Source of the DNA: Sthenelais limicola
Lineage: Eukaryota; Annelida; Polychaeta; Phyllodocida; Sigalionidae
Direction of reading: 5' to 3'
Length of the DNA stretch: 64,000 nucleotides
NCBI GenBank assembly: GCA_942159475.1
Contig: OW804097.1
Span: forward strand, 6,539,685 to 6,603,684
The notes under the pieces were generated by a model. That model did no database searches. It was given only the letters and a program-made list of their open reading frames with translations, and was not told where the DNA came from. A program made the position numbers and the translations under genes. This document shows, piece by piece, positions 33,501-63,773 of this stretch. Position 1 is the stretch's first letter. Every line of letters begins with the position of its first letter.

Positions 33501-36500
33501 CGAATGACACAGACATTTATGTGGAGGATAAGTTTGACATTTATGCCAATAGACCAGAGTTTTATGAGCAATACTGCATGGCTGATTTCCTGTGTACGGT
33601 GAACAAGATTAAATTGACACGAAACCATTCAGCTAAATTTTGTTCAGAAAGCATTACACAAGGGGGTTACGCATATCGACCACGAGAAACATCAAAAGTA
33701 CTGTCCTACTATTGCCCTAAGTTTGATGACGATCCTGAGAATTTTTACAGAATTCAATTTCAATTATTTTGGCCATGGCGTCTGGAGGACGAAGTCCTAG
33801 ATGTGTATGAGAGTTATTCTTTGGCCTATGGCAACCTTACAATACAATCAAGGCAATCCATGCAAGAAAACCATTCGAAGTATAACTGTGAGTGCCTTCA
33901 CAATTTGGCTGATCTTTTTAATAGGGTTCCAGATGAGAATTTAGATGAGAATTTAGCACCTGGATGTGACGAGGCTAATGAACAAGCTATTGAAGAAGGA
34001 TCACGTAATATTGCAGACGATGGTTTCTTTGTCCCTCTGACATGTCAAGATTACATAAATAATGGAAATGATGTAGGGGCTACAGGCATATCCACAGCGA
34101 CTGTAAGCGTGGACGAGCTTTGGCCTCGCTCTCAATTGATTCAAGGAACTCAGGAATTGAACTCTAAACAAAGGCAGATATTTGACCATGTGATGAAGGC
34201 AATTTTGTTGGACACTGAACAACAAATTGTCTTTCTTAGTGGAGGGGCGGGGACGGGGAAAACCCGGATTTTACGCAATATTTACATAGGTCTATCACGG
34301 GCGTACAATCTTCTGCCTGGAGCTGACCCCTCGCATGATTCAGTAATTAAGCTTTGTTATACCGGTAAAGCGGCCTTTATGATCCGAGGGAAAACAATAC
34401 ACAGTGGCTTGCACATCCAAACGTATAACAACAGAATATCCTATATTCCACTCAGCGCTGACAAACTTAGCACTGTACAATTGGCCTTCAAACCAGTACG
34501 TGCAATACTAATTGACGAAATTTCGTTAATTGGCAGTAAGTTTTTGTCAGTTATTGATAAACGTTTAAGGGAAATAAAGCGTGTTGATATTCCCTTTGGT
34601 GGCATCCACCTCATCGGATTTGGAGATCTGTATCAACTCCCACCTGTTAATGACAGCTGGATTTTCCAGAGTTTACATGGTATTGAAGGTTTAGGCGTAA
34701 ACTTATGGAAGGAATGTTTCAAAATGTTTGAGTTAACTGAAATCATGAGGCAAAGGAATGACCTCGAATTTGCTGAAGTGCTGAACAGAGTACGGGAGGG
34801 AGGGCATACACAATCCGATATTGAAATTCTGGAATCTCGCAACGTCCAAACAATTGATGAAGCAATAATAAGAACCAATGGCCAATCACCTGCATTCTTA
34901 TTCTTGACCAATGAAAGGGTACGAAATATGAACAATTCTCTGTACGATATATCCCATGGTGAAAAATGCGTTGTTAACTGCTTTGACCGGCTGTTGGGTA
35001 AATTCAATGATACGATAAAAGAGACATTATTAGAAGAGGCATTCCTTGTACAACATAATGTATGCTGCCTTCAAGGTGAGTTAAGGCTGTGCACTGGCCT
35101 GTTATATGACGTGGTTACAAACATAAATGTAGAGGATGGCCTTGCCAATGGTAGCTGTGGTATATTGCGGTTTATTCAATTTAGGCCAGGTTATGAGAAA
35201 CCAACATGTATCTGGATTGAATTTGATGAACCAGAAATCGGGACTACACAACGACGTATTTACCGATCACAGATATGCCCAGGAATCAATCCTGCCTGGA
35301 CGCCAATCTTTCCAACCACAATTCAGTTCAGTATACGTAGAAAGTCAGTAAATATATACAGGAAGCAATTTCCATTACGTCAAGCTTCTGGGAAGACAAT
35401 ACACAAATCACAAGGCTCCACCGTCGATTCTGTTGTGGTTGATCTGCACACTTCAGGAAGGTGTGGTTCCCTTTTGAGACATGCTGCATATGTTTCAATG
35501 AGTCGTGTCACCACCTTATCTGGTCTTACGCTAGTTGATTTCGACCCATGTAAAATCAAGCTGGACAATAACGTCAAGCTAGAAATGTCCCGATTAAGAG
35601 AGACTGCGTATTTATCCTTGAACTTTAACACATTCAAAGATGATTCTTTGGTTATTTATTATCAAAATATTGAATATGCATTGAGGAATAAAGAATCCCT
35701 TCTGTGCGACCCACAAGCTAAAAGAGCAAACCTCATCCTACTGAACGAAACACACTTGACAGAGTTTTGTGATTTTGTGTACAAGCCAGACATGTATAGA
35801 ACATACAGGGTTGATGTCAGTTCAAACGATAATTTGAACATCCGATCGGGACTAATGATGATAGTGAACAAAGAAGTAATCATAACTAACAATTATTCCT
35901 ATGGGGCTCATGGTTGTGAGTACATGATTGGAGCGATTGAGTGTATACCACGTTTCACAGCATATGTAGGAGTTTTCTATTGTCACCCTACGGCAGGTAG
36001 ACGGCATAAGCTTCAGATGCTGCGAAGTGCATCGTCCATTTTGTCAGGGAAACGAGTATTAGCATTTGCTGGTGATCTAAATGTAAATGCTCTCGATTCA
36101 GTGAATAACTCTTTTTTAACAACTGTCTATAACCTTTTACCTCCGTCCCAAATGAATGGTGTGCCAACAACGCGGTGGAAAACTAAAATAGATTACTTAT
36201 TCTCTGGAGAAGTAGGAATATCATCATCTCATTATATCCCATGGTCCCACCATCTAGCGCTTAGCATGGAATACTGAAATGCAGTCTAGTCAAACAAATA
36301 TCAAATTCTATCAAATAAATTTCCAATATGTTTTTATAGTATAGTCTACAGTATATACCTATAGTATTTCTTAGTAACTTTATATATAGTAACTTTTTAC
36401 ATAGTGGATACTGGAAAAGTACTGGGGAGAGGGAGGGGGCACATATAGGCTTCATGTAAATGAGAAGGGGCGGGTCGTCAGCTTTTACCCGCCCTGGATG

Positions 36501-42500: not shown

Positions 42501-45500
42501 GGCACTTGGCGGAGTCCTGCTCAGGACATGTTGTATTACCGCTGGACTAATGACTGCATTTATCATCAATATGATAATGTGGTTAAATGTTTATCCAAGA
42601 ATTGGCATTCAATTTGTCAATACATTTTTTCCAGGCATTTGATACTCAGGAGGTGCAGGTGTGTAGTTTGGTGCAGCACCTGATCACAGGCAAGGTGCAC
42701 CAGGTGCATGGCTTCTTCTGGGTTCTGGTCAACACTAAACAGCACCAACTTGTAGAGATGCTGGGCTTCCCTGCCAGAAACTATGTTGATATCCAGCTGA
42801 TGCTGACGTAAGTATAATATGTTATATGGTATATTATATACAAACTTTATTTGCACTTGTTTTACATTATAAATGGTTTATATGTGGAAATGGGTCGCTT
42901 CTCATAGGAGCCTTCATATAATATTAAGAGTTAATAAGACAATATTTAGTGGGGCCATGTAGCCTTTCAGTTCGCATAAATGTTGAAACAATTGGAGTTA
43001 ATATTAAAGGTTTACATATTACAAGGTGTATAATTAAATGATTCTAATGAAGCAGTCAGAGGATGGACTCAGGCCATCTATTCCTCAATAATGTCTAATT
43101 TCCCACAAACCTGTACAAAATCAGATTGAAATCAGATTGAATATTAAACATAATCCAAGTGTTTTAATACTTGAAGCTGAGAAAAATGGGAGAGAATGCT
43201 ATGAATAACCAAAACTATACTCCTCTATTCCGAGATCAATACTTGCCTGGTCATCTGACGTTCCTAAGTTAGTGAATGGCATTTTAATTTTAGAGGGGAG
43301 GCCCATAAAAACAAAAATGTCCAACTTAAAAGGAGAGAAGAACGAAGTAATTGAATCTCAGAAGGGCATTGATAAAATGCAGGCCCCCACATATTGAACA
43401 ATAGAGAGGGACTTAAGTAGGCTAATCAGCATTTGTAGTTATATACATACAACATTTAAAGGTATAAGCTTCATGTTAAGGCCCCCTCCCAACCAACAGA
43501 TTTCATCGACCTCACCATATTAGATCCTTTGACTTGATGTTTACTTTGCTCTAATCCTCTGGAGCCATGTTTTATTCCATGATAACTTTTAGATAATCAA
43601 GGTTAATCAGGTAAGGTCTGGAGTTGCCTCTCGGTACCTTCAGCGAACAGGTGTTTAGGTGTCACCATTGCGCCCAATCCTGGTATTTGGTCTGGAGTCT
43701 CTAGGGGTACAGAACCTGTGAGTTATCACAATAATAATAACAACATCATCCTGCATCAATCATCCATCATGTAGTGCTATGATAAAAATACTTCTTTTCT
43801 TTCAGATCATCCTTTATCAAGTGTCCCTCATGTAGTGAGTTGTATTCAACCAATGCCTACATCATGGTCCACTGTGGACATTACATCTGTCGGCCATGCC
43901 TTAAGGCTGCCAAGTTTACAGTGGAAGATGACAAGACGGAAGGCATAACATGCCCAGTACCTGAGTGTGGTGAGGTTACCATGACACTACCAAACATGGA
44001 TGATGACATGGGGCTAGAAAAGGATGGAGTTTTCATGGATGTCATTGGAGATATAATGAAGAATTACTCCAAAGATGAAACATGTCACCTCTGTTCCTGT
44101 CAACTAAACATATCTTACAGGAAGCATATCTGTTCTGGATGTAAGAAGTTACTGTGCAGTTCCTGCATTAATAAGCATGAAGGTAAAGACCATCAGATCA
44201 TTCACCAGCATTCTGCAGATGTCTGTTGTCTCCATGGGAAGAAAACAGAAACATTTTGTTTGAAATGTAACATCTTCAGATGTGAATCAAAAGAAGTGAT
44301 GCCATGTGACCATAAGGCTCCAAGCAAAAAGACAAAGATGAATACCAGCCTTCAGAATATTGAAAGACAAGTCCTACAAATTGGTGCCCAAGCAGCAGAC
44401 GTTGAGAAGCTCAATGTTGTTCTGAAGAAGCGTAGGGATGAAATGGTGGATTATGTACATCACCAGCGTGATCATGTTAAAAGAGCAATGGACAAATGGT
44501 CTGATGATAATTTATCACACATTTCAAAGATGACACGACATGTAAGTATAATTTGGAGAACTTGTTAGTTAGTGCACATGGCTAATATTTAAGAGATTCT
44601 CCCATGTGGCAACTGCCTTCAACATTCAACAGATACTTGTGAAGATTTATGCTGTACCTTCTGTCTGTATCGAGACATCGTAATATTATCGCATTCTATT
44701 AAGTCATTATCATTTTCTGCCATTCTTTTCCAACCCATTTAAAAGTCATTTCTCATTGTTCTGTCACATTGTTTTTTGCGATGTTGTTTTTGCTACAAGG
44801 CTTCTAAAAGGTCCTTATTTGTATTTGGAGGCTCCACCCAAATCCTTTCCTATGAATTCAGACATCACTTATTACTCACTAGCAACTGTTTTTGCTTGAC
44901 TGATTCTATTTCAAATGCTTGTATAAATATATATCAGCCACAGAATATTGATGAGTTCAGGCTTATAAGTCATAATATGAGCAAATCTTGTATAAACATA
45001 TAACAGCAGCAGAATATAAGACATAATAATAGTAAAGTTGGTAAGATTGTGTTTGCGCTAATAGCTGAGAGAGAATGCAGCTTTAACATGAATGCAGAAG
45101 TCAACCCAGATTACCCTTACGTTTGAGCTAAGAACCTCAATCCATAATTCTATTTGGCGAATATCATATATCAACATAATGTATAGCGTTGTGTAGATTT
45201 TATAATTCACAGGGGGAAATATTTTGCAGGTGGGAGTTAAGCATAAGCAGTCACTTCAATGGAAGACCATATCTCCAGGGCTCATTGGTATTCAAGCAGA
45301 TCAGCCTTGGTTGGACCTTGGCCTGGACAAGCTGGACCTTACCTTGTCTCCTGAGGTGGAGGCTTTTGTTTCTAAAGTCAGAGATGGTGAGCCTCCCTCT
45401 AAGATACTCTCCAGAGTTCCATATGCACCTGTACCTCCTCCTACAAGAGGTAAGTAATATTCTTTTATGTTTACAGCACTTTGTTTATTTAAAACCAACT

Positions 45501-48201
45501 CATAAATCAATAATTTTTTTTGTGCCCAGTGTTCCCCCTCAAATGAAGAATCTGAGGACCTCAGGAACACTGTGGAGGCAAAATGGATACATCGCCTTAA
45601 GACTATGGCCCCACAAGGTCTCAACATCATGGACGCCATCACATGGCGCAATCGTCAACAATAACAGGAAGGGGCCTCGGTAACGGACTGTGGGGGAACT
45701 CCATCAGGCTGTCTAGCCACGTTCTAAATTTTTATCACCTATTGACACCCGATGGAAGAAATCCCCCACATGGAGACCCCAAACTGCGATCACTGACTAC
45801 AGTGATGTCCTGGTTATTGAGACACAATGCTCTTGTATTATTACACTAATGATCAGTAATTGAACATTAGTGACCTAAATAATATCACCACAAGTAGCAT
45901 ATGGCCCTGGCATTTCTATATAATGGATACCAGGACCGTATGGACTGAGACTAATATGTCACAGTCGGGATAAACATATGTCACACATGAGGATATATAA
46001 ATCCCAAGACCACTGTTACACTATTTAATAGGGAGATGTTGATATTATTATTATAATATTATAATATCACTCCCCCCAAGATCCCTGATCTGCCTGATGA
46101 GCCCATCAAAGGGGCGAAACCATGTTGTGCCAAACACCATCAGTGATGGTGGAAGGGACCCCCCAAATAACACAGGATGCCTAGTGATGTCACTAAGGTG
46201 TCAAAGTCAATAATAAACAAGACAATTTTTATTATTGTTCCATCAATTATTAATAGTTGGGAAAAAGGGTCCTACATCCATTATTTATTTATAAAAAATA
46301 ATGTGGGTGTAATTTCCAGGTGTGTTCTGACATCACACCTGGCAACAAGTGCACCAGCCTATGACGTCATAGGCCGTAGCGAGGTGAAAGAGACCGTCGC
46401 CAGGTGAGAGTTCCTTCTCTCATTACATGGTAGCAGTACCGAAGGGAGCGGAGGTGTATAGCTTCGTCGCATATATCATAAATCAATAATTAGCTCGCCC
46501 TAAGTGAGGTCAAACATTTCATTTCCTGTTGATGCAGAGCCCATGCCATTTCTAAGGCTGGGATTGCCTGGGCGTTCTAAGTCTATGCTTGTTTTTGAGG
46601 GAGATATGAACATCCCGGCTGCCAGCCATGTCTTCTGCTTTCAAAATCAAGGGTAGTTTAGGTGTACCAGTAGTGTACACAATATCTACGCTGAATGAGG
46701 CTGAACATAAGCTTTCAAGCATTTAAATATTTTTAACTGATCTGTTATTGTTAGTGAACCAGTCAACTTACACACTGAGCCCAAAAACTTAGAACCAAAG
46801 TTAAAACTATTTTTGTCTTATCAGGGGCAAAGCCGTATGCACTTCATTAGGAGTCTATCAGATTTAATGTAATCGGTGACACTGTTGTCAGAATCAAAGC
46901 AATTTGTTTTACCTCAGCTATTAAGTGAAAACAAAAATATAGAATCTTCTGTTCTGAAGATATTATATCTCATAGACTCCAATGCTGTCGGACTTGGACA
47001 CTGCTTTCTCCAAGGTGGGCACTATGATCAATATAGCTATTGGTGTCTAGCGCTTTCTAGGGAACCGCTCGGATTTCTGTGGCAAGAATACCGAATCTGG
47101 TGGATTATTCATATGATATCTCCTATCCAAAATATAACAAAAGCTTTCATGGTATTCTAAAATTGCATGTATTTTCAGCCAAGTACATGCACACAGTAGA
47201 AATGCAGATCCCGCCGGCCTACAGTACATAACTTACTATGTTTATAGATACATACTGTGTATTATTACATGCACAAGATATTGGTTACCACTAACCACTA
47301 ACCGTTATTGTGTAGAGTAGGTAGATCTGCTTAATGAGATGTTCACAACGTTTTTTGTCTAAGCTACCATCCTTGACAAAGAATTATCTCATCTTATGAA
47401 TTCCCTGTTTTTTCAGCAACCTACATGACCAAGTGGCAAATTCCATTTACTAATAGCTGGCCTACTGTAGCATTGACATCTGATTGTCGACTGCTTATTA
47501 CTACATCTACAGGCCTCCACCAGCTTTACTTCGATGTGGCATCCTCCCTTACATCTTCACTCATACATGCTGCAACAAACCCTACACAGATCAGCACAGC
47601 GGAGGATGGATCCTGCGTTATGACTATGGCGGATACAGGTAAACTAGTGATTGGTGATGTTAACAAGGAAGGGGTCAGGGAGTGGACTCCTCCTGGTATA
47701 AAGGCTTACAGTGCAGCTATAGATAACTCAGGTATCTATGTCCGAGCAGATGATTCAGTTTACTTGTTCAGCAGGGACCTGGTGAAACAAGGGCAGTATC
47801 AGATAGATCCCAAGTGGAAAGATGCTAAGGGTATGATATATTTCGGCCAGACTTGTGACTTGTTGCTTGGTTTATATGATAGTCAAGCTGTTCTTGTCAT
47901 GAATCCCCAAACCGGAGAATGCAGATCATTCCAGAACAAAGGTACCAAGGGTAAACTGGACCATCCAGTTAGTGTATGTACTGTGGGCACTGATGACTAC
48001 ATCCTTGTAGCTGAGTTTAACAAAAATTGTGTGAGTGTGTTCACTCACCACGGTGAATACCTGCATGACATACAGGTAGAAGGTAAGGCTAGATACCTAT
48101 ACAGTATGAGCGTATTGGAGAGGCAGGGAAAGCCAACTCTCATGGCGCTTACTACATTTATAAATGATAAATGGTGTTTGGAGTTGCACACACTGTCATG
48201 A
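27586..48201 (+). CDS. CARD-RING-B-box-propeller protein (TRIM-like E3 ligase), copy B, whole locus
   Basis: Six coding exons (27586-27599, 41448-41643, 42635-42807, 43806-44541, 45230-45449, 47417-48201) join in frame to 707 residues with exactly the phases of copy A. The domain order is the same: CARD-like (about 10-127), C3HC4 RING, two B-boxes, coiled coil, linker and NHL-like propeller. All RING and B-box Cys/His ligands seen in copy A are kept, so ligase activity is plausible. Exon 4 lacks nine codons present in copy A. Intron 1 is about 13.8 kb because a Helentron sits in it. Intron 5 holds a Penelope-like 3' end and a decayed extra copy of the start of exon 6 (47179). The start is ATG 27586, in the same context as copy A. 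Function is inferred from domains. The pair is a tandem duplication old enough that intron sequences no longer align except close to exons. Confidence 0.82.
27636..27850 (-). mobile_element. Minus-strand retroposon tail (poly-A family), copy 2
   Basis: Poly(T) then AATACATTTTATTGAGCGAA, then CACAGTATGTGAGAAGTCTAATTAG. This is a diverged match to 18822-18890. The extent is uncertain. Confidence 0.45.
28365..28379 (+). other. Small hairpin near the presumed Helentron 5' side
   Basis: GTGAGC-GAA-GCTCAC forms a perfect 6-bp stem. A CATA microsatellite follows at about 28412-28451. Proposed only as a candidate subterminal hairpin. Confidence 0.3.
28690..28835. repeat. Tandem repeats upstream of the Helentron genes
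   Basis: Three copies of AGTGAGTGAGTGACTGGCCC-type units are followed by three copies of a CCCCTCCTGCTCCTGCCCGT / CAAAACAACC unit. Confidence 0.7.
28905..29029 (+). repeat. Three copies of a 20-bp hairpin motif in the Helentron leader
   Basis: GCGAAATACAACCCTTTCGC occurs at 28927-28946 and 29010-29029, with a near copy at 28905-28924. Each full copy can fold as GCGAAA/TTTCGC around TACAACCC. A following block AAACATATAC.TTTCACAAAC is repeated with it. The placement, 170-300 bp before the first ORF, suggests a promoter or replication role (inferred). Confidence 0.7.
29202..30962 (+). CDS. Helentron ORF1: C76/OTU-like cysteine protease with repetitive basic tail
   Basis: A 586-residue frame from ATG 29202. 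The N-terminal 160 residues have Q19-G-D-x-R-F, then GKQC32 and FD151PH153S. This Gln, Cys and Asp-x-His layout is that of the peptidase family typified by herpesvirus large-tegument deubiquitinases. Related domains are known in animal Helitrons, where they are often called OTU-like. The rest is low-complexity: a 23-residue repeat (MSASLDS...EKSSTPVVVP, twice), GKIDSVQTKRMPKRAR (twice), and three NRQPHAN.PVQK units. Ubiquitin cleavage is a family-based guess. The frame ends just before the next ORF, which is in another frame. Confidence 0.75.
   Translation: MSASKRIPEVKSLRGSYNQGDRRFGNNAGKQCVTNSIVFLCTTTHHTVTNFCVSTIDRILEKGNELYSKVRPLFEHDYLNVDEVPRKLIFNNFQYNLKTFTSLGGYIEEVDNLKMQIVSALSKSRTLCFLSNGKCIAVNHDAKSGRYAIFDPHSCSAYGMPALDGRACMMLYATFERMFRHLQRLFISTERRAYEIVPIELNNKRVHGSHANVQFLNTSIPAYRVMSASLDSSTIVEKSSTPVVVPDMSASLDSTYTLVEKSSTPVVVPNIEERCRRIADEAEIAVYMPTSDTLIPVSQNAKVKLPQSAWFKVRMREKIDERARVISGLLTPAELADQKAKRKASLRKRKGKIDSVQTKRMPKRARGKIDSVQTKIMPKRARSAAQDNEFSPNSANKFSPNSAHSQTSSTRPSNNRQPHANKPVQKSGRGASTRQSKNRQPHANTPVQKGTSCGRGASTRPSKNRQPQAHANTPVQKRPADPKRPISVITASDPKWPITASDPKRPITASHLVNPSPSYQLVQDALSGGVASPESNICVDSRQVDEGWEENEWEDDENLNFPDIIPDTIPDAPINLSVEEYYAHSN
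30968..32257 (+). pseudogene. Helentron Rep-helicase ORF, N-terminal part cut off by a stop codon
   Basis: A 429-residue frame that is in the same frame as the ORF starting at 32306, from which it is separated only by TAG at 32255-32257 and 16 codons. It begins without ATG in a CxxC zinc-like region (YTCCVC ... CHSC). The conserved Helitron N-terminal domain follows (TPEEEKLIALRIPFMDIK, GGQLQLFGNVINVPTN), then an acidic Asn/Asp-rich repeat. The last part (SSIFPKEVNFLD...) starts the Helitron-like N domain that continues after the stop. The frame is open upstream to 30938, overlapping ORF1. Confidence 0.8.
32306..36277 (+). CDS. Helentron Rep (HUH) - PIF1-like helicase - AP endonuclease
   Basis: A 1323-residue frame. 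The Rep domain has the HUH motif GTGH130IH132ML and the two-tyrosine motif Y305IVNY309INK. The PIF1-type helicase has Walker A SGGAGTGKT (about 645-653), Walker B ILIDEIS (about 732), GDLYQLPPV, GKTIHKSQGSTVDS and YVSMSR. The last 220 residues are an exonuclease-endonuclease-phosphatase fold with LNETHL, AGDLNVN and TRWKTKIDYLF; the final SDH-like motif reads SHH. This is the replication and strand-transfer enzyme of rolling-circle transposition. The true N-terminus lies upstream of the TAG at 32255, so the intact protein would be about 1769 residues. As it stands the element is probably not autonomous. Confidence 0.93.
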   Translation: MDNGFTLYQQLRNSPMYFRWKRSEVVATIRQIGVPTFFISLSAADSRWPNLLKAVGRTVDKKDYSDDDIENMSYGEKCRLLNADPVTCSRYFDNRFKAFLKDIIGSPLCPIGKVSDSFFRTEFQQRGTGHIHMLVWCSDAPKYVPGGDNELVCEYIDKYISCSLDVSEETKKYVKYQVHKHSHTCRKGGRAVCRFGYPLPPFSKTTILSPKPEATAEDIENYVAIQTYLDTLDYDITFEEMLIEMGLSDEQYIDAVRSNLKNRRVFLKRKPNENRVNAYMKNLLQIWEANMDCQFTLDPYSVVGYIVNYINKESRGLSLSLREMSAECKRKGSGIKETVKSLGSVFIKSTEVSIQECSYMLLGLPLTTMSRDVIYVTTRLPSDRSKVLKPKRVLEEADPNDTDIYVEDKFDIYANRPEFYEQYCMADFLCTVNKIKLTRNHSAKFCSESITQGGYAYRPRETSKVLSYYCPKFDDDPENFYRIQFQLFWPWRLEDEVLDVYESYSLAYGNLTIQSRQSMQENHSKYNCECLHNLADLFNRVPDENLDENLAPGCDEANEQAIEEGSRNIADDGFFVPLTCQDYINNGNDVGATGISTATVSVDELWPRSQLIQGTQELNSKQRQIFDHVMKAILLDTEQQIVFLSGGAGTGKTRILRNIYIGLSRAYNLLPGADPSHDSVIKLCYTGKAAFMIRGKTIHSGLHIQTYNNRISYIPLSADKLSTVQLAFKPVRAILIDEISLIGSKFLSVIDKRLREIKRVDIPFGGIHLIGFGDLYQLPPVNDSWIFQSLHGIEGLGVNLWKECFKMFELTEIMRQRNDLEFAEVLNRVREGGHTQSDIEILESRNVQTIDEAIIRTNGQSPAFLFLTNERVRNMNNSLYDISHGEKCVVNCFDRLLGKFNDTIKETLLEEAFLVQHNVCCLQGELRLCTGLLYDVVTNINVEDGLANGSCGILRFIQFRPGYEKPTCIWIEFDEPEIGTTQRRIYRSQICPGINPAWTPIFPTTIQFSIRRKSVNIYRKQFPLRQASGKTIHKSQGSTVDSVVVDLHTSGRCGSLLRHAAYVSMSRVTTLSGLTLVDFDPCKIKLDNNVKLEMSRLRETAYLSLNFNTFKDDSLVIYYQNIEYALRNKESLLCDPQAKRANLILLNETHLTEFCDFVYKPDMYRTYRVDVSSNDNLNIRSGLMMIVNKEVIITNNYSYGAHGCEYMIGAIECIPRFTAYVGVFYCHPTAGRRHKLQMLRSASSILSGKRVLAFAGDLNVNALDSVNNSFLTTVYNLLPPSQMNGVPTTRWKTKIDYLFSGEVGISSSHYIPWSHHLALSMEY
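36685..36692 (+). promoter_or_regulatory. TATA box of the Helentron OB-fold gene
   Basis: TATAAATA in the context GCGGATATAAATACCCGC lies about 100 bp before the ATG at 36789 and just after the helicase ORF, so the last gene has its own promoter. Confidence 0.65.
36789..37013 (+). CDS. OB-fold gene exon 1
   Basis: 75 codons from ATG 36789 (ACACGATGGCAGG) to the donor GTAAGTT. Low-complexity RGRGAGRGR sequence typical of nucleic-acid-binding tails. Confidence 0.7.
36789..39466 (+). CDS. Helentron-borne OB-fold (RPA-like) single-strand DNA-binding protein, whole gene
   Basis: Five exons (36789-37013, 37424-37749, 38008-38152, 38463-38699, 39074-39466) join in frame to 441 residues with canonical splice sites. 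Residues 1-75 are a Gly/Arg/Ser-rich disordered tail. Two OB-fold-like segments follow in exons 2 and 4, with VTVSDLV and VRLIQTEDEAKLVE-like layout: RKFVIADGTGAAVGYLRRS and IHISDGSATGVCTLWD. The C-terminus is very acidic (DDDDEEDNED ... EEEFDEEE). This layout resembles RPA70-type proteins, and RPA-like genes are known cargo of plant Helitrons. Binding the displaced strand during rolling-circle transfer is the likely role. AATAAA signals follow near 39806 and 39818. Assignment to the transposon rests on position between the helicase and the 40126 hairpin; a captured host gene is the alternative. Confidence 0.7.
37424..37749 (+). CDS. OB-fold gene exon 2
   Basis: Acceptor CTATCTTTCAG, donor GTAAGTAT. 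Encodes the first OB-like segment with RARAQ-type strands (MHVTMCARAQVVCL), FVIADGTGAAVGYL and SISVKTYKVENGIIWI. Confidence 0.75.
38008..38152 (+). CDS. OB-fold gene exon 3
   Basis: Acceptor TTTTCATGACAG, donor GTAAGCAC. A short linker exon encoding a Pro/Thr-rich segment ending TSVNGRVVQ. Confidence 0.65.
38463..38699 (+). CDS. OB-fold gene exon 4
   Basis: Acceptor TTTATTATTCAG, donor GTAAGTAC. Encodes the second OB-like segment with KEIHISDGSATGVCTLWDA and VQIGQNIELLDVTV. Confidence 0.75.
39074..39466 (+). CDS. OB-fold gene exon 5
   Basis: Acceptor TGTTCTTTCAG, stop TAA at 39464-39466. Encodes a helical region (IMPEEEVAETIMHIVGID) and the acidic C-terminus. It is followed by three tandem copies of CATTCAGTGACGATGCCT at about 39480-39540. 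Confidence 0.72.
   Translation: MMPEEEVAETIMHIVGIDRDAYSEDFDITVEVANRVECYQVNVNMLLNALQMAPTTSIDELLEILPRSIMATLRGTVLDDVRAYTQDDDDEEDNEDLGPNGNDRTRVINAIDNDTPNIVINDEEEFDEEE
39798..39823 (+). terminator. Polyadenylation signals of the OB-fold gene
   Basis: Two AATAAA hexamers close together (TTAATAAAGC and CAAATAAAAT), about 340 bp after the stop codon. The cleavage site is not determined. Confidence 0.5.
40126..40149 (+). other. Perfect hairpin, candidate Helentron 3' end structure
   Basis: Two 10-bp arms (ATGTGGCTAT and ATAGCCACAT) around ATAA, preceded by GCTTCGCTTCGCG. Helitron-type elements end near a hairpin; none of the usual terminal bases can be fixed here. Confidence 0.5.
40161..41027. other. 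Remainder of copy B intron 1
   Basis: No gene. At 40437-40530 it holds the second copy of the dispersed repeat seen on the other strand at 20860-20940. Confidence 0.5.
41028..41205 (+). repeat. Interspersed repeat with (ACTC)n tail, copy 4
   Basis: Full-length copy running from CATAAAG-like CCACAAAGTGCCTTTCTG through GCCCTTGATAAAACACTC and GATAAGGGCGTAAAGCAACC to (CACT)n. Confidence 0.75.
41448..41643 (+). CDS. Copy B exon 2: first half of the CARD-like domain
   Basis: The exon is 196 bases long, with acceptor TTTATTTCAG and donor GTATTG. The same LLTMLINNMALLTSEM helix as copy A is kept, and the charged C-terminal helix differs (GVIDEKLMADLQ). A foldback MITE lies only 22 bp into the following intron. 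Confidence 0.85.
41665..41871. mobile_element. Foldback MITE of about 207 bp
   Basis: The ends CTGGGTTCCACTGGCCGGCT and the next ten bases are perfectly inverted at 41841-41870. Internal GCGGGAGCAA(G)TAGCGGGAG blocks also mirror around the centre near AAACATGTTT. Most of the element forms one long imperfect hairpin. No ORF is present, and the target duplication is unclear. Confidence 0.75.
42635..42807 (+). CDS. Copy B exon 3: second half of the CARD-like domain
   Basis: The exon is 173 bases long, with acceptor TTTTTTCCAG and donor GTAAGTA. It encodes the segment with VHQVHGFFWVLVNTKQHQLV, matching copy A exon 3 in length and phase. Confidence 0.85.
43806..44541 (+). CDS. Copy B exon 4: RING, two B-boxes and start of coiled coil
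   Basis: The exon is 736 bases long, with acceptor TTTCTTTCAG and donor GTAAGTATA. RING ligands (CPSC ... CGHYICRPC ... CPVPEC) and both B-boxes are intact. It is 27 bases shorter than the copy A exon. Confidence 0.93.
45230..45449 (+). CDS. Copy B exon 5: linker to the propeller
   Basis: The exon is 220 bases long, with acceptor ATTTTGCAG and donor GTAAGTAA. It encodes the conserved KHKQSLQWK and KLDLTLSPEVEAFVSKVRDG and ends VPPPTR. The Penelope-like fragment begins about 70 bp downstream. Confidence 0.88.
45521..46450 (+). pseudogene. Penelope-like element 3' fragment with ORF C-terminus
   Basis: The frame 45521-45664 ends NTVEAKWIHRLKTMAPQGLN...RQQ-stop. The E.kWI..L.t..P.GLN signature is the typical C-terminal end of Penelope-like ORFs, after the GIY-YIG endonuclease. 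The rest of the ORF is missing. A hammerhead core follows at 46094. The right boundary is uncertain. Confidence 0.6.
46094..46120 (+). ncRNA. Hammerhead ribozyme core motif
   Basis: CTGATGA, then a GCCC/GGGC stem closed by ATCAAAG, then GAAAC, exactly the conserved hammerhead core and stem II. A very short stem III and a GTT cleavage triplet can be drawn after it. Hammerheads are known in Penelope-like elements, and a Penelope C-terminus lies 430 bp upstream. Activity is not shown. Confidence 0.55.
47179..47231 (+). pseudogene. Decayed or alternative 5' piece of exon 6 (copy B)
   Basis: TATTTTCAG followed by CCAAGTACATGCACACAGTA matches the start of exon 6 of copy A (TTTTCAGCCAAGTATGTGTACA). 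In the exon 5 phase it reads AKYMHTVEMQIPPAYST and a stop. It lies 185 bp before the functional exon 6. It is either a remnant of a third copy or an alternative last exon giving a protein without the propeller. Confidence 0.6.
47417..48201 (+). CDS. Copy B exon 6: NHL-like beta-propeller and stop
   Basis: The 785-base terminal exon follows acceptor TTTTTTCAG and ends in TGA. Blade motifs match copy A, such as ISTAEDGSCVMTMADTGKL and LDHPVSVCTVGTDDYILVAE followed by a CVSVFTHHGEYLHD strand. Confidence 0.9.
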
Positions 48202-56136: not shown

Positions 56137-56220
56137 TCAGTCAGGAGTAAATCCCCATGCTTTAGCCACACCAACAAGCCAGCACCTGTACTTGTGGAGT
56201 AAGGCAGGAGAACCCTTCAC
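56137..56220 (-). other. In-frame duplicate of the last 28 codons, placed after the stop codon
   Basis: The final 84 bases of the ORF are repeated right after the TGA at 56221-56223, in the same frame. They would read VKGSPALLHKYRCWLVGV and AKAWGFTPD before a second TGA. Only a few bases differ from the first copy, so the frame is preserved. Either the first TGA is a later mutation or the tail is reached by readthrough. Confidence 0.8.
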
Positions 56221-57711
56221 TCATTGAGGAGTAAGTCCCCATGCTTTAGCCACACCAATGAGCCAGTGCCTGTACTTGTGGAGTAAGGCAGGAGAACCAG
56301 ATTCTTCATCATAAGCTGCCAGTCCCTGGTAGATGGAGGAGGGCAGCAGATGGTAGAGCAGCCTGACCGGTGACAGGAGGAGGTGAGCCACGGTGGGTGA
56401 GAGAGCCGTTGTGTAGCAGGAGGCAGCCACACCATCAACAATGATGTTACCAGTTGTGGTGTGGGGGCAGTACATGCCCTGCTTCCACTCCATGCTCACA
56501 CTCTTCACTCTGGTGGGCTTCAGTTCAGTCTCTGTGAAAGATGTAAACACAATGTCCCCAGGTCTGACATGCTTTGCTGGAACAAGGTTACCAAGTGTAC
56601 CAACATGGAGGAGATGACTTCCGGACAGGAATATCTCTCCTCCAGTCTCCAGTTGAACACCAACACAACACATGTTGATGTTGGCATTGCCATGACTGAA
56701 CATGATGACAGGGGAATACAGCAGGGAGCCAGAGTTATCACACACCAACACTTCATCACCAACACAGAGCTGGGACATTGTCTTCTCTCCAGTCTTGGTG
56801 ATCACCTTCCCTTCTCCACAGAAACATTCTCCTACTTCATTCACAATATACTGCATTTCTTCTACTTTGCCATCTATAAGACCTTCAATTCTTTCTTTGC
56901 TCAGTACATGTTTGTACTTACTCTCCTCTCTGAACTTCTTCTTCAGGTTCATTCCCTTGTCTGTTAGCTTTCTTTTTATTTTGTCAGCCGATCCAACAGC
57001 CTTTTGATTGAAAATCCAGTTTTGCAAGTTCTTGAATATTTCACTGCCAAGTTCTTCCTCTAAACACAACTTTTCGATTTCTTGTTGTTTAAGACCAGCT
57101 TTAACCGGGGATTTTCTCGGAGATGTTGTATTGTCTTCTAAAATTGTTTCCACCGTTTCATAAAGAAATCGGTTGTTGACAGTAAGAAATTCATAGAAAT
57201 TCCGGTCCACACCTACCACATATTCATCTTCAAGTTTTTTTGATAGACACTTCACTATCTTGGAGCATAGCTTGTCTATGTCTTCCTTACCACTCTCCTT
57301 GAAAGAATCAGCAATTTCTGTACCTTGAAGCGCTTTTCTCAATGTTACTCTTACCTTATCCATGAACTCAGGATTACGGTTAAATTTAAGCTTTAACTTA
57401 TCACGCTTTTCCTTTGCTTTCTGCAGTATATCGCTTGTATATGGTTTTGTTTGTTGCTTCAGATGGACCCCAATGATGGACAGGATGACACAACGACGCT
57501 GGATTTCTGCCTGGATTCTAGATTTAGTGTTATTGTCAACTACAAGAAAACGGCCCCCTGCTTTTTCCTTGACACACTTATCAAAGTAAGCAAATTTCTC
57601 AACCTCTGTGTCAGTGGTAAGGTACTCTGCTGTGGTGCCCTTTTGTAGAATAGCATCGCCGTAGGTCGCAAGGAAAACACAGTAGCTGAATGACTCTTCT
57701 CCCATGTCAGA
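56221..57711 (-). CDS. GTPase-Hint gene last exon: end of GTPase, helical linker and Hint domain
   Basis: The 1491-base terminal exon follows acceptor TTCCATTTAG. G4 and G5 of the AIG1 domain lie in its first 70 codons. A Lys/Glu-rich linker follows. The Hint domain begins at about 56826 (ECFCGEGKV) and runs to about 56320, followed by a hydrophobic tail. The stop is TGA at 56221-56223. Confidence 0.92.
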   Translation of the reverse strand, partial: SDMGEESFSYCVFLATYGDAILQKGTTAEYLTTDTEVEKFAYFDKCVKEKAGGRFLVVDNNTKSRIQAEIQRRCVILSIIGVHLKQQTKPYTSDILQKAKEKRDKLKLKFNRNPEFMDKVRVTLRKALQGTEIADSFKESGKEDIDKLCSKIVKCLSKKLEDEYVVGVDRNFYEFLTVNNRFLYETVETILEDNTTSPRKSPVKAGLKQQEIEKLCLEEELGSEIFKNLQNWIFNQKAVGSADKIKRKLTDKGMNLKKKFREESKYKHVLSKERIEGLIDGKVEEMQYIVNEVGECFCGEGKVITKTGEKTMSQLCVGDEVLVCDNSGSLLYSPVIMFSHGNANINMCCVGVQLETGGEIFLSGSHLLHVGTLGNLVPAKHVRPGDIVFTSFTETELKPTRVKSVSMEWKQGMYCPHTTTGNIIVDGVAASCYTTALSPTVAHLLLSPVRLLYHLLPSSIYQGLAAYDEESGSPALLHKYRHWLIGVAKAWGLTPQ

Positions 57712-60700
57712 CTAAATGGAAAACAGAATAGAAGACCAGTTCACAAGAGTTGATGATAGATATACAAAAAATAATAATAATTATGTGTATTGGGTGTATG
57801 ATATTATAGCATGCCAAAGTAAATACATAATGGTGATCTTACACTAGACCAAGTCTTTCCCTTCAACCCACCAGTCAATAGGGGATTTGCATGTGTCATT
57901 GCGCATGTCTATCCCAGTGCATTATGGGATGGATTCTTAAAAAATCGAACATACAAATATTTGCCAACATTTTTATCGAAAATTGCAAGAATGCTTTCAC
58001 CAATATCATTGCTTTTTTGAATGATATATCAAAACCAAATGCATTATGAGAAAGATGGAGACATGTGTTATGGAAAAATGTATACCACATGGATATTGGC
58101 GTTAGAGCATTAATGCTGAACATGGCATGTTTTCTATATAATTTATACTGTACCATTAGTCCCATGATTCCATGCGAATCAAGATTCAAAATGGCGGCTA
58201 TGCAAATCCCCTATACTGAGTGTAAAGAATGATGCGATTATTAATCTTTTAGTCTCACTCTTCCCCACGATTCCCTAGTGTAAACGTTAATATAAAGAGA
58301 TGACCTTTTAAAATCTCTTTATCCTAAATCATACAAAATTCCCTACTGCCAAGTATGGTTGTAACTTCTGGGCATTAAAAACGTAATGATATAGTCGTCC
58401 AGTGCATTATAGTTTTCCATGCAACCTCCAAATGGGGGAAGAGGGGACTTTAGAAATGGCTTTTACAAGCATCAATACATTTCCAAAACCATGAGTGCCA
58501 AAAACTGTTATAGCACCATTCCTGTTAGCAATTGTCATTTCTTTAAGCTGCGATGATTAATCAGGGAATGGAAAGCATCAAACGTTTTCCATTTCCTGCC
58601 ATGTCTTCCATGCATTACTTCCCTTCCCTAGCAGTTATGTGAACCAGCAATTCCAGTAACTATCTAGTGTCACTTCTCCATTATAAAATGACTGAATAAA
58701 TGTTACCAAAATATGTAAAAGGTCTTTTCAATAACACTTAAGCTTCTTACCTCAATCATTTTCATGGATTCTAACTCTTCCTGGGTGAATCTTGATGACC
58801 CAGACTGCACATGAACAAATACGTGTACCCCAGCTTGCATCTCTTGTAGAATCTAAAGCAGATCATTAAAATTTTGGTATGCTATCTTGGATGTTGACAC
58901 ACCTGGAACACAACACTTTACCATTCTCATCACACATTTGTCTTTATAGACCATTTGTACACTGTTTTCCCTCTCTCTATACAAACTGGTGTTATGATAA
59001 AAAGGTCTTTGGCTCATATTGAACACGTCTAATCACAAAATGTGCTCAGCAAAGGCTACACTTCCCCCACATTTTCTAACCCACGCACCTCTGGTGCAAA
59101 CCTCTAAATGAATTGTAGTTCTAACCTTTAAATTGTCTCTTGAGCAATGGTGGAAGTGGATAGCTGGACTGACGTGCCAGTAAAACCTCTTCTCCAAAAT
59201 GTGATTTTTAGTGGTATAACCAACCTGAGTTGTCCTATTTATATTCTACTGCAGTAGAATATAATACTTTTTAAAATAGGACTGAACCATTTTTAGGGCT
59301 GAACCATTCTGTATTATATACTGTTTAAATTCCCCTGAAAGATTTCAAAACTCACCCCAAATATGATACTTGACAAATGGTGCTCCTCCTTTTCCTCATC
59401 AGTGTCAAAAATCCCTGGAGTATCCATGATATTAATGGTTGTACCATGATATCGTAGCTGCCGAACTAGAGTGACCTTGGTCTGGGACTGCACGCCAATA
59501 GCAGAGTCAAACTCAAACTGCTCAAGGAGGGAGTTTCCTGTCGCACTTTTCCCCACGCCAGTTTTTCCCACCAGGACCACATTTATCACTTGGTCTTTTA
59601 GATCTAGTGTAGATGCCAGGGTGTTTACATCAAATGCCAACCGCTTCATGCACTGGACAGCCTGTAAACATGACCATAGTCGCAAATTAGTCTCAATGAC
59701 ACTCATTAACAGACTGTTATGAATCTAAATAGATAATTTACCATGGTTAAAGCAATTATTAGATATAGATAGTTACACTTTTCAATAAACATATGTGCCA
59801 ATTAAACATACTAACTGGTTTTTGCACCAGAGCATCCAATATTTTGTCATTTACTGGACTTTCATTGAACAAAGCCGACATTCTAGCTCTTGATCTCAGA
59901 GTTCCCTTTGCTATGTGCATCTCATACTCCTTCAGCTGGTCTGCGATTTGTGATTGTGTGTCTTCTAATTCAGGCCACTGCAGGGGATCTGAGTCATTGG
60001 GTCCAGTGTAGAGAGGCGATGCCTTGAAGCATTTGATCTCTTGGTCATATGCATATAACGTTAGGTAGTTCTTGGTGAAGTCAGTCAAACACGCTGTCTT
60101 TTCTGCAGTTTGTTCTGTTCTTGTTGCAATTGTCTTCTTTGGCGAGAGAAGGACCTAATGAAAATACAATTTCATTTGAGTGAGTGAGTGAGTGAGTGAG
60201 TGAGATTGGTTGCTTTTTGCCCTTATCAACACCTCTATCAAGGGCGGGAGAGCTGAGAGCGAGTGTGTGAGATTGGTTGCTTTACATTGAAGGTTATATC
60301 AAGGGCGGGAGAGCTGAGAGGGAGGCAGTTTATGATCTTACCCAGGAAATAAAGATAGAGAAGAAGGGAGAGAGAGGGATAGAGAAAAAGAAACAGAAAG
60401 GCACTTTATGGTCTTACCCAGGACCGGAAAAATGCAAGTATAAAATGGCGGTCATAGTTTGTGAACCGTATCTGTTCATTTTATGTTCCTAATTATACCG
60501 AAAAATGTTATTATTTCAAAATGTATCCCCTTTAGTTCCATTCTCACAACTCACCTGATTCATCTAATCAAAACAATAAAGACACCTTGCCACAAAAACA
60601 AAACTACACAATCCTTTCATATGGGAGATTTTGAATTCATATTCTAGCATTAAATAAAGAGACAGCGCACCTCTATCAAACGTTCTTGGGCATTTGCCGT

Positions 60701-63700
60701 GCGGTTCATCAGAAAGTCGCAAAGGTTTTCTGTTCTCAGCTTATCAGGATAGATTAACTTCCCTTCCTTCGGAAACTCAGAGCACTTCTTGAAACCTTCC
60801 CAAGATTCCTGGAAATAGTTTCCACAAGGACGTTTCCTACAACCATGACGTTTAATATTACTGGCATGTATATTCAGAGGAAATCGTTCAAAAAGGTTAT
60901 GAGTGTCATCTACCCGATATCTGATATCTATATCTATATTATGTCAACCAGTCAGGCTTGAAATCCTCCCACCAATGGGGAGCTTAGTTCCGTTGACGTT
61001 CATTCATTACTGTTTGGCAATAAAAGTTACAACAACAACAAATATCTTCAGTGACTTAAAACTTTGCAAATTAATTTATGGTACTCTTGGTATTCCTGAA
61101 AAATCTATGGATATTTCCAAATATGTCAGTAATTTGGCCAATTGTGTTGGCTGCTCATTTTAGTCAACAACTCTACCCAGTATTATTTTCCCAATTATTT
61201 CGACTTAATTAATCTGCCAATATGTTCACATACAATCTTTACATGAATCATATTAACAGAAATAAATAACATTAACAGCATGGCACAGACTAAAATGTCA
61301 ATTATTTTTATGAAGCCTCAAGGACAGTATAGTTCCATACAAATAAAGTGTGGGGAGTCAAGACTTTGTTTGATTTGGTTTGACAATGTTAATTTCAATT
61401 ATAATTTACGGCTGAAATGCGATATATTTTCGGGTCAGGCCCGTGTATACACATAGGGCTTTCCATAGAATGCCAAATTCGATAGTACATTGTAAATGCA
61501 CCACTGGGCACCACTGATACTCACACTTATAACCCGAAGTTCCCCATGGCTAAGAATTTCGAATGGTTGATTCATTGTTAACTCCTACTTACATGTTAGG
61601 AGGTGTTCGAGTGGTGTCCAATATAAAGTAAGCCTTCTTTCCAATATATTCAGCAACAATTGTATGTGTCGCGTTGCCATCCCCAGATGATGAGGCGGGA
61701 TTGATTTCCTGTGTGAGAAATGGTGCTTCTTTCGTAAAAATATGTTACCATCATTCATGATATTCAAATCCCATCTAAAAATCCCCAGCAAAAAAAACCC
61801 ACGTTATTTGTTTTGTCCCCAATCTGAAAGGATATAAACGTGAAATAGGCAAAATAAAAAATATCCAAGACTTTTCTTTTTGGAATATCCAATACCTTTT
61901 TGTCAACTTTCTTTTCCTTTTTGCCAATGTCCTTTTCCTTTTCGGATTATCCTTTTCCTTTTAGGAATATACTTTTCCTTTTTGGAATATCCTTTTCTTT
62001 TTGGAATATCCTTTTCCTTTTCGGAATATCCACTCCTTTTCCAAATATCCACTCCTTTTCACCCAAATGTACCATGATGTATTCCTACCCCAACATGACT
62101 GGGAGGGAGAAGGAGGGTGAGAGGGAGAGGGAGGGTGAGCGGGGGAGGGGGGGGGGTGAGCGGGAGGGGAGAGGGAGAGAGGGAGAAAGAGAAAGGAAGA
62201 GAAGATGTATTGGATGTGTTATGTAACACTGCTACACTACAAAGATAGCTGGTGGGCCCCCATTCAGGGGTAGTGGATAATGTTATGTAACACTGAGCCA
62301 CTGAGTCATGTGGGTTAGATATTCAGAAAATGTACAATTCATCTTCACCAATCCTCTCCAATAACCCAAATTTCAGACCAAAATAAAGTTCAAAATACAG
62401 TTCAACCTAACCAAACAGATTGCTAGAATCAATGCAATGCCAAATGTACAGGTATTTACATAATATTGACCAAATTGCAGCCTAATTTAGCAGAATATAC
62501 TAAATGTGTACAGCTGCCAATTGTACATTTTCTGAAAATCTGACCCATGTCTGCTTTTGTATGGGTAGAAAAGGAGTGTCCCAGGGAGGACACCAATGAG
62601 AAAAGATGGCCAAATCTAGACATAGGAGTCACAGCAGCCAGACATGGCTTTTCAAGTAGGGGAAATAGGAAAATGGTGCAGTGATATACTTTTCGGTGGT
62701 GAATATCTAAGGGAAATAGTGGAAAAGGAGGCTGACATGGGAAAATCGACACTGACATGGAACTTTTTGTTCTGGAAATAGTAAAATCTTCCCGGAAATA
62801 GGAAGAAAGCAGTTGGAAAAGAACTATAGTATGTGAAATAGCATGTACCACAGAGGAAAAGTCTGTACCGATTTCATCATTTGTACATATGTCTACTTTG
62901 GGACGCAACATTATTTACGCACTTTTTAAAATGTGTAAGATTCAGTAGAATTAAGGAGGTCCTGGTGGACAGAAGCATGATATTATTTCCGCATTTGATA
63001 TTTTGATTTTGAGGGAGAAGCAGTCATATTTTGCCTCTCATTGACCTTTTTAGAACATTCCAGGTGATACATAATATGGTGTACGGACAGTGCCTGGGTA
63101 AACCCCCCATATCAATGCCCCCCACCATGCCATTACCCCAAAGGTCAAATGCCATATATGCCATATGCCTTTATCCCGCCATTCAAGAACTACGCCAGCA
63201 TATTTATGTAGGGGCAAACATGTTTTCAATACACTATGGGATCCACCAAGGAATTCATATAATTTGTTGGCATCGAAGCCGGTAATATGGTCTATTTAAA
63301 TGTCATACATGTCAGGCATTAAAGTCTAGTTGAAACGATGCCATATGCATATTATAATTGTGCTACAATCATATGTCAGTCGAGCTTTAGAGATCATTAT
63401 GGGCGTCTTGACGTATTGGAGTTTATAATAATTGCAGAAGTACATTTTTATGTATAGTAGAATAGAAGTGTTTGTTGCATAGTCTTTCAATATACACTTA
63501 TACTTACTTTGATTTCTGAGAAAGAAACAAGAGTGTAATGCTTCCCTTTACGGAAGAGGCCAATATTCCTCAATATCTTTATCTCTTCCGTTTCATCTTC
63601 TTTCTTCATGAGTGCGTCCATGACCACCTCAATAGACAGTCCGAAGGCATGAAAGAGGTCAGACCATTCGTTGATTGGGTGGAATTCGATGTTAATACCT

Positions 63701-63773
63701 TTTTTTCTCATTAGGTTTTCTTTGCTGGGAACAACCAGGGCTCCTGAGGTTACACACTCATCTATCTGTGTAT
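56221..63773 (-). CDS. AIG1/GIMAP-type GTPase fused to a Hedgehog-type Hint (Hog) domain, 5' partial
   Basis: Seven exons on the minus strand (63773-63508, 61708-61593, 60836-60671, 60154-59816, 59661-59356, 58852-58751, 57711-56221) join in frame at canonical sites to 927 residues in this window. The first exon here opens at an acceptor, so the N-terminus lies beyond the window. Residues 1-295 are unrecognised. The AIG1 domain (about 318-500) has G1 GKTGVGKS (327-334) with ATGNSLL, G3 DTPG (375-378), the AIG1 signature G-H-x-F...RFTQEE, G4 TYGD and G5 DNNTKS. A charged helical region follows (about 530-720). The Hint domain starts at ECF (Cys about 727), with GDEVLV, SGSHLL (the TxxH His kept, Thr to Ser) and ASCYT. 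It ends in an AHLLLSPVRLLYHLLPSS segment like the Hedgehog C-terminus. GTPases of this family act on membranes; Hog domains self-cleave and can attach a sterol. A self-processed, lipid-linked GTPase is inferred, not shown. Confidence 0.85.
57881..58211. mobile_element. 331-bp MITE with GGGGATTTGCAT ends and TA target duplication
   Basis: TA-GGGGATTTGCAT at 57879-57892 is perfectly inverted at 58200-58213 (ATGCAAATCCCC-TA). The TA duplication fits Tc1/mariner-type mobilisation. It lies between exons 6 and 7 of the GTPase-Hint gene. Confidence 0.75.
58212..58750. other. Rest of the last intron of the GTPase-Hint gene
   Basis: Nothing recognisable beyond ordinary AT-rich intron sequence. Confidence 0.5.
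58751..58852 (-). CDS. GTPase-Hint gene exon 6: AIG1 signature exon
   Basis: 34 codons, with acceptor TCTGCTTTAG and donor GTAAGAAG. GVHVFVHVQSGSSRFTQEE matches the conserved GPHAFLLV...RFTxEE box that separates AIG1 GTPases from other P-loop GTPases. Confidence 0.88.
58853..59355. other. Intron of the GTPase-Hint gene, empty
   Basis: No ORF and no element ends. A small inverted repeat TTCTACTGCAGTAGAA lies at 59244-59259. Confidence 0.5.
59356..59661 (-). CDS. GTPase-Hint gene exon 5: G1 to G3 of the AIG1 domain
   Basis: 102 codons, with acceptor TGTTTACAG and donor GTGAGT. Contains the P-loop GKTGVGKSATGNSLL and the DTPGIFDTD switch II motif. Confidence 0.93.
59816..60154 (-). CDS. GTPase-Hint gene exon 4 (in window)
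   Basis: 113 codons, with acceptor TTTTCATTAG and donor GTTAGT. Encodes a mostly helical segment with LEDTQSQIADQLKEYEMHIA, likely a spacer before the GTPase. Confidence 0.78.
60179..60423 (-). repeat. Interspersed repeat with (ACTC)n tail, minus strand, tandem or nested copies
   Basis: GTGAGTGAGTGAG is followed by GATTGGTTGCTTT, GCCCTTATCAACACC and CAAGGGCGGGAGAGCTGAGAG. A second GATTGGTTGCTTTAC...GAGAGCTGAGAGGGAGGCAG then continues into AGAAACAGAAAGGCACTTTATGG. This is a full copy with a partial second copy at its tail, in an intron of the GTPase-Hint gene. Confidence 0.75.
60671..60836 (-). CDS. GTPase-Hint gene exon 3 (in window)
   Basis: The exon is 166 bases long, with acceptor CATGGTTGTAG and donor GTGCGC. 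Encodes FQESWEGFKKCSEFPKEGKL; no domain is recognised. Confidence 0.75.
60837..61592. other. Intron of the GTPase-Hint gene, no features recognised
   Basis: AT-rich; short open frames only. Confidence 0.5.
61593..61708 (-). CDS. GTPase-Hint gene exon 2 (in window)
   Basis: The exon is 116 bases long, with acceptor TCTCACACAG and donor GTAAGTAG. Encodes IVAEYIGKKAYFILDTTRTP; no domain is recognised. Confidence 0.75.
61879..62055. repeat. Minisatellite of CTTTTCCTTTTNGGAATATC units
   Basis: About eight copies of an 18-20 bp pyrimidine-rich unit such as CCTTTTCCTTTTCGGAATAT. The unit drifts along the array. Confidence 0.85.
62098..62206. repeat. GGGAGA-rich purine tract
   Basis: Almost pure G/A on the plus strand for about 105 bases (GAGGGAGAGGGAGGGTGAGC and similar). 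It is capable of triplex or quadruplex structure in principle. Confidence 0.85.
62207..63507. other. Intron of the GTPase-Hint gene, remainder
   Basis: No supported coding exon on either strand; short frames only. Confidence 0.5.
63508..63773 (-). CDS. GTPase-Hint gene, first exon in the window
   Basis: Acceptor TTTCTATAG, donor GTAAGTATA. Encodes an unrecognised globular segment with INEWSDLFHAFGLSIEVV and LRNIGLFRKGKHYTLVSF. An upstream exon must lie beyond position 64000 or in the last 220 bases. Confidence 0.75.

Follow-up and report, generated by a model that had tools for sequence, protein, structure and literature searches.

Proteins that join an AIG1 GTPase to a Hedgehog-type Hint domain have been described in several lineages. 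Four are reported from the coral Acropora (PMC3723955), AIG1-Hint proteins are also published for the snail Biomphalaria (PMC7053062), and CARD+AIG1+HINT proteins are known from lancelets and a few fungi, in a study that calls the architectures recurring most often unique to amphioxus among animals (PMC12373286). GmGIN1 of the fungus Glomus mosseae carries an AIG1/IAN-like GTPase upstream of a Hog domain and has no signal peptide (PMC2362128). Here we describe a gene on the minus strand of a 64,000-nucleotide stretch of the annelid Sthenelais limicola (assembly GCA_942159475.1, contig OW804097.1, positions 6,539,685 to 6,603,684), referred to below as the window. The exons predicted for it spell out a GIMAP-type AIG1 GTPase with a CARD in front and a Hedgehog-type Hint-SRR at the C-terminal end. 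An earlier note on this DNA knew of no GTPase-Hog fusion; the published coral, snail, lancelet and fungal proteins overturn that claim, and we do not regard the fusion itself as new. What the accessible parts of the open-access literature did not yield is a natural His at the position of Asp303, its contrast with a Hedgehog-like locus of the same genome, and gene conversion or homogenisation of a Hint up to the scissile bond.

The lancelet proteins resemble the window gene in domain order (N-terminal CARD, AIG1, C-terminal HINT) and in their lineage-specific expansion; unlike the findings here, the available portion of that account makes no mention of catalytic residues, a general-base His or cassette homogenisation (PMC12373286). 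The accessible text on Acropora and Biomphalaria states no CARD on the Hint-bearing proteins and gives no residue analysis (PMC3723955, PMC7053062). GmGIN1 shares the placing of the GTPase upstream of the Hog domain, but is fungal and described as a single gene, unlike the clustered copies found here (PMC2362128). The Acropora paper, in contrast to our reading, infers protein splicing (PMC3723955). We rejected splicing for the window gene because its translation, read by us without an intein-specific tool, runs from the Hint into a tail and then a stop, with no C-extein. GIMAP GTPases have the AIG1 G domain in common with the window gene, lack the CARD and the Hint, and bind membranes by other means. 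The Hog domain of Hedgehog (1at0) and its D46H/D303H mutant (6tyy) share with it the fold, Cys1, the TxxH His and the SCY Cys. His46 was engineered in the mutant, whereas His is the natural residue in the window gene; natural Hedgehog differs in its Asp46, its Gly at position −1, its HWY hinge and its secreted Hedge domain.

Seven exons lie within the window. As read from the sequence by exon prediction, they are bounded by AG/GT and all keep one frame, although the donor GTGCGC at 60670 appears weak by eye. The exons, with the AIG1 portion of the last, are as follows:

63508..63773, minus strand: first exon of the gene inside the window, starting mid-codon after an acceptor, with upstream exons outside the window (from frame and splice sites)
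61593..61708, minus strand: exon, N-terminal region without a Pfam match
60671..60836, minus strand: exon, N-terminal region without a Pfam match
59816..60154, minus strand: exon preceding the GTPase domain
59356..59661, minus strand: exon with AIG1 G1 (GKTGVGKS) and G3 (DTPG); the AIG1 Pfam match begins at about 59583
58751..58852, minus strand: exon with the AIG1 conserved box RFTQEE
56221..57711, minus strand: last exon, with the AIG1 G4/G5 half, linker, Hint, SRR-like tail and stop, a single open reading frame (ORF) of 496 amino acids (aa)
57391..57702, minus strand: AIG1 C-terminal half (TYGD, DNNTKS), Pfam positions 112-209

The single spliced gene proposed in the earlier note is supported by the frame kept across the predicted exons and by G4/G5 and the Hint lying in one open exon. 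The ORF of that exon is far longer than chance would give: when 60 sequences of 64 kb were simulated from the dinucleotide frequencies of the window, the longest ORF was 220 aa. The 5' end that had been placed at 63773 did not stand: the exon there opens mid-codon, and five CARD-encoding exons beyond the window (pieces of C4:6608717-6604673) connect to it in frame. No start codon was found in the exons read upstream.

Both domains give significant profile matches in the 927-aa chain, AIG1 over residues 322-538 (Pfam 9.1e-33, 113.8 bits, cut-off 27) and the Hint over residues 723-887 (1.6e-34, 119.8 bits, cut-off 29.7). The full set of GTPase motifs named earlier is in place. Their order is GKTGVGKSATGNSLL, DTPG, RFTQEE, TYGD and DNNTKS, followed by CF, SGSH, ASCY and the hydrophobic tail, so that G1 (GKTGVGKS), G3, the conserved box and G4/G5 are all present; the usual G4 motif is [NT]KxD, where the window gene has TYGD. 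The best PDB match of the AIG1 domain is GIMAP7 (3zjc, 4.5e-17). From the last exon alone, the AIG1 half scores 3.4e-4 (20.4 bits, profile 112-209), under the cut-off on its own. For the CARD region, the top PDB rows are the caspase-9 CARD (E 0.056). A Hedge signalling domain gave no Pfam match in the 927 aa nor in the 294-aa N-terminal stretch, the extreme N-terminus not having been found.

The Hog-like Hint read earlier in the G4/G5 exon, with its Cys, SxxH and SCY motifs and hydrophobic tail, was likewise recovered:

56341..56838, minus strand: Hint domain (PF01079), 6.1e-35 from the last exon alone, with fold matches to 6tyy and 1at0
56824..56826, minus strand: codon of the catalytic Cys1, which the predicted cut would separate from the preceding Glu (56827-56829), from alignment to Drosophila Hedgehog
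56692..56694, minus strand: His codon where Hedgehog has its general-base Asp (Asp303/D46), from the same alignment
56614..56625, minus strand: SGSH, the TxxH counterpart
56416..56418, minus strand: Cys of ASCY, the C400 counterpart
56224..56406, minus strand: SRR-like tail, predicted helix-loop-helix (helices 156-172, 175-182, 192-196 and 198-207 of the model)

Among fold matches of the Hint model, the mutant 6tyy and the wild-type 1at0 rank equal first; up to residue 210, the tail with its predicted helices has a block predicted local distance difference test (pLDDT) of 53-71. A fold of the whole last exon (pLDDT 42) was discarded. Directly after the TGA, and in frame with it, stands an 84-base near-copy of the gene's final 27 codons (56137-56220, minus strand) ending in its own TGA; readthrough would give a second tail helix. 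Similar post-stop repeats occur at loci L015 and L018, with a partial one at L019.

A six-frame profile search of the 1.13-Gb genome, made without introns and thus liable to miss an intron-split Hint, returned 13 Hint-matching places, all above the cut-off. In size this genome exceeds that of a lancelet. One of them, L001 (208 bits), is Hedgehog-like by eye in sequence and in its HWY-bearing tail. Eight copies, four per strand and including that of the window, form a cluster at C4:6.59-7.38 Mb. The remainder are two loci at C4:112.70-112.83 Mb, one on C6 (L013) and a fragment on C1 (L020). L013 (C6:106209499-106209984) is a divergent Hint with Gly at −1, TPGH, His at 303 and a short ORF of 307 aa. 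L020 (C1:111144742-111144948) holds the C-terminal third of a Hint with a Hedgehog-like tail, and may be an exon from another Hedgehog-like gene.

Reading 20 kb per locus, we found an upstream tblastn match to the P-loop exon at 9 of the 10 other AIG1-Hint loci, L013 having none, and to the CARD exons at four (L010, L015, L019 and, for the second half only, L016). The AIG1 second half is detected by Pfam in the last exon (E at most 0.005) of L014 and all eight cluster copies, whereas L017 and L013 give no such match; it exceeds the cut-off by itself only in L011 and L016. Each cluster copy keeps a single stop-to-stop ORF of 496-529 aa spanning saturated synonymous sites. What emerges is a cluster of GTPase-Hint genes together with distant relatives; within the DNA read, five of the eight clustered genes match the CARD.

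Across the 11 non-Hedgehog Hints read in the genome, the counterparts of Cys1, His329 (TxxH) and Cys400 (SCY) are kept without exception, including at loci with saturated divergence. The general-base Asp (D303/D46) is replaced by His in all 11, while L001 and Drosophila have Asp. Engineered D46H is reported to retain cholesterol activity and to widen sterol use (PMC9163320).

The eight cluster copies share one further feature:

56221..56832, minus strand: homogenised cassette common to the eight clustered copies, its best-placed change point lying 6 bases ahead of the codon for Cys1

Over the 28 pairs of these copies, mean synonymous divergence (dS) is 0.120 for the 140 codons of the Hint and 0.095 for the tail. 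Upstream in the same exon it nears saturation: the 22 pairs that could be computed for the AIG1 half average 1.394, and the 20 for the linker 1.496. Taken in bins of 60 columns, nucleotide identity is 0.87-0.99 within the cassette, against 0.37-0.74 before it and 0.19-0.47 past the stop, apart from one stop-spanning bin at 0.71. Third-position identity leaps at Cys1 from 0.43-0.50 to 0.84-0.99, and the best single change point falls two codons ahead of the Cys1 codon. The P-loop exon has a mean identity of 0.68 in seven of the eight copies (L010 left out). Upstream divergence does not predict cassette divergence (rho 0.15, the pairs not being independent). Across the eight copies, then, the homogenised DNA stops where cleavage is predicted, and the GTPase and linker upstream of that edge have diverged.

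We propose that the Hint-SRR probably cuts itself at Glu-Cys and would pass the GTPase C-terminus to a sterol, by which a likely immune GTPase would become membrane-anchored; we hold this sequence-based proposal to be evenly poised. Its parts differ in strength. Cleavage of some kind is probable, and for a sterol adduct on the GTPase the balance is about even. In a first step, suggested by the conserved Cys1, [S/T]xxH and SCY, an N-to-S acyl shift would form a thioester at Cys1. A sterol hydroxyl activated by the His could then attack the thioester, as suggested by the exchange of Asp for His and by a tail predicted to form a helix-loop-helix, and the sterol range would likely be broader than that of Hedgehog. 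The freed CARD-GTPase would finally act at membranes, its adduct replacing the transmembrane helices or prenyl groups by which other immune GTPases are anchored. The immune role itself is likely by kinship with GIMAP and CARD proteins. The earlier note had also suggested self-cleavage with a lipid adduct; the cleavage fits the conserved residues, and the sterol addition is what we infer beyond them.

Several observations weigh against this proposal. Residue −1 is Glu in 8 of the 11 non-Hedgehog Hints, the window gene included, and Ala, Lys and Gly in one each, and so is not generally Gly as in Hedgehog. No HWY hinge is seen in the window gene or in the tails of the other cluster copies, and Thr326 is Ser in 10 of 11 non-Hedgehog Hints. 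The ratio of nonsynonymous to synonymous divergence (dN/dS) does not fall in the cassette: the AIG1 half has 0.28 and the linker 0.31, the Hint 0.33 and the tail 0.63. One of five AlphaFold models is good (76.9, versus 37-47 for the others), and the CARD match (4.1e-5, 23.9 bits, profile 3-83 of 85) lies exactly at its cut-off. Hedgehog processing, moreover, occurs in the secretory path.

The mostly Glu residue at −1, the missing hinge and the weakly constrained tail would also suit a Hint that cuts without lipid, its thioester going to water or to a small thiol or amine. Cleavage would then serve to release the CARD-GTPase or switch it on, a logic comparable to autoproteolysis in NLRP1/CARD8. 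Cleavage by dithiothreitol is reported to be more efficient in D303A, N, R and E mutants (PMC9163320), indicating that changes at 303 can loosen thioester control. The His substitution, however, is the one reported to retain sterol transfer (PMC9163320), and the tail is kept in all eight cluster copies and homogenised along with the Hint. Cleavage without lipid is in our view possible, if doubtful.

A catalytically dead Hint with a structural or regulatory role appears unlikely. The Ser in TxxH, the mostly non-Gly residue at −1 and a Hint dN/dS not below that upstream would fit it, as would the greatly reduced activity reported for T326A in Hedgehog (PMC9163320), but Cys1 and the His329 and Cys400 counterparts persist in 11 of 11 Hints, copies at other loci with saturated divergence among them.

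As for the cause of the homogenisation, gene conversion is likely, and purifying selection on the protein is very improbable. Relevant here is P0051, which was matched together with P0052 among 1,269 candidates in a further protein search and which aligns to the GTPase-linker part yet has no Pfam AIG1 match. Against P0051, too, the Hint is conserved above the upstream part (0.52-0.54 versus 0.30-0.37), as selection would predict. The GC content of third codon positions (GC3) rises in all eight copies from 0.34-0.40 upstream to 0.51-0.56 in the cassette, a step that GC-biased conversion would produce; L001, however, has a like step (0.53, after 0.32 in a preceding stretch of the ORF that is probably intron), which makes the GC3 step a weak sign of conversion and no proof. 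Selection on the protein is countered by the synonymous sites, which drop as well: at shared degenerate amino acids, codons are identical in all eight copies at 114 of 146 positions in the cassette and 0 of 9 upstream. With Hint dN/dS no lower than upstream, divergence is low at all sites and a special protein constraint is not supported. Homogenisation is absent from the pair of loci at C4:112.7-112.8 Mb, where Hint dS is 2.9. P0051 also branches with L010 and the window copy in the upstream tree (87/97) and outside all eight cluster copies in the Hint tree (91/96), both forks falling below the tool's star and carrying a long P0051 branch.

That a GTPase gene and a separate neighbouring Hint gene were wrongly joined we reject as barely credible: the joining of the GTPase exons to the last exon rests on exon prediction, but G4/G5 and the Hint share one ORF here and in the cluster copies, all eight of which keep it over saturated synonymous sites, and AIG1-Hint proteins are in print for other animals.

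Because the protein searches required words of five residues in common, they do not allow a judgement on how rare relatives are. With candidates capped at 7,988, residues 300-927 gave at least 50 matches; among the matches listed, 49 have AIG1 and P0050 a Hint only. P0050, a metagenome protein of 1157 aa, bears its Hint on a large protein without an AIG1 match, with His at 303 and no SCY Cys. With residues 700-927, 1,319 candidates were compared and none matched. The Hint alignment, with patterns biased to His, found none in scans of viruses and prokaryotes, and there was no phage match.

Elsewhere in the window, two similar RING-finger genes, TRIM-like by eye, lie on the plus strand at 17002-17838 and 43786-44568 (Pfam RING 4.4e-7 and 1e-6), each followed by a repeat-like ORF without a Pfam match (21560-22393 and 47377-48201, plus strand). 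A long Helitron ORF occupies 32258-36277 on the plus strand (Helitron_like_N 2.3e-21, PIF1 2.1e-26), with an end that looks endonuclease-like by eye. An open 1037-aa frame of a non-long-terminal-repeat retrotransposon (endonuclease and reverse transcriptase) runs on the minus strand at 10514-13627.

Taken further, and tentatively, the CARD-GIMAP family may sterylate itself by a natural, broad-range His Hint, with conversion that ends at the scissile bond keeping the cassette near-identical in a diversifying cluster; Asp would then be a speciality of Hedgehog, and His the state of intracellular, GTPase-linked Hogs. Hedgehog is known to undergo ligation to a sterol. A His-based Hint from nature offers a ready test of the base-swap mechanism, so far represented by an engineered mutant only, and is a candidate enzyme for linking proteins to diverse sterols. 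Were this Hint active, an immune GTPase would anchor itself through autoprocessing, and not by prenylation or transmembrane helices. With the cassette homogenised to the predicted cleavage site, the self-cutting module evolves apart from the sensor part of the same exon; the cluster would, if this is true, combine variable sensors with a single common self-anchoring engine.
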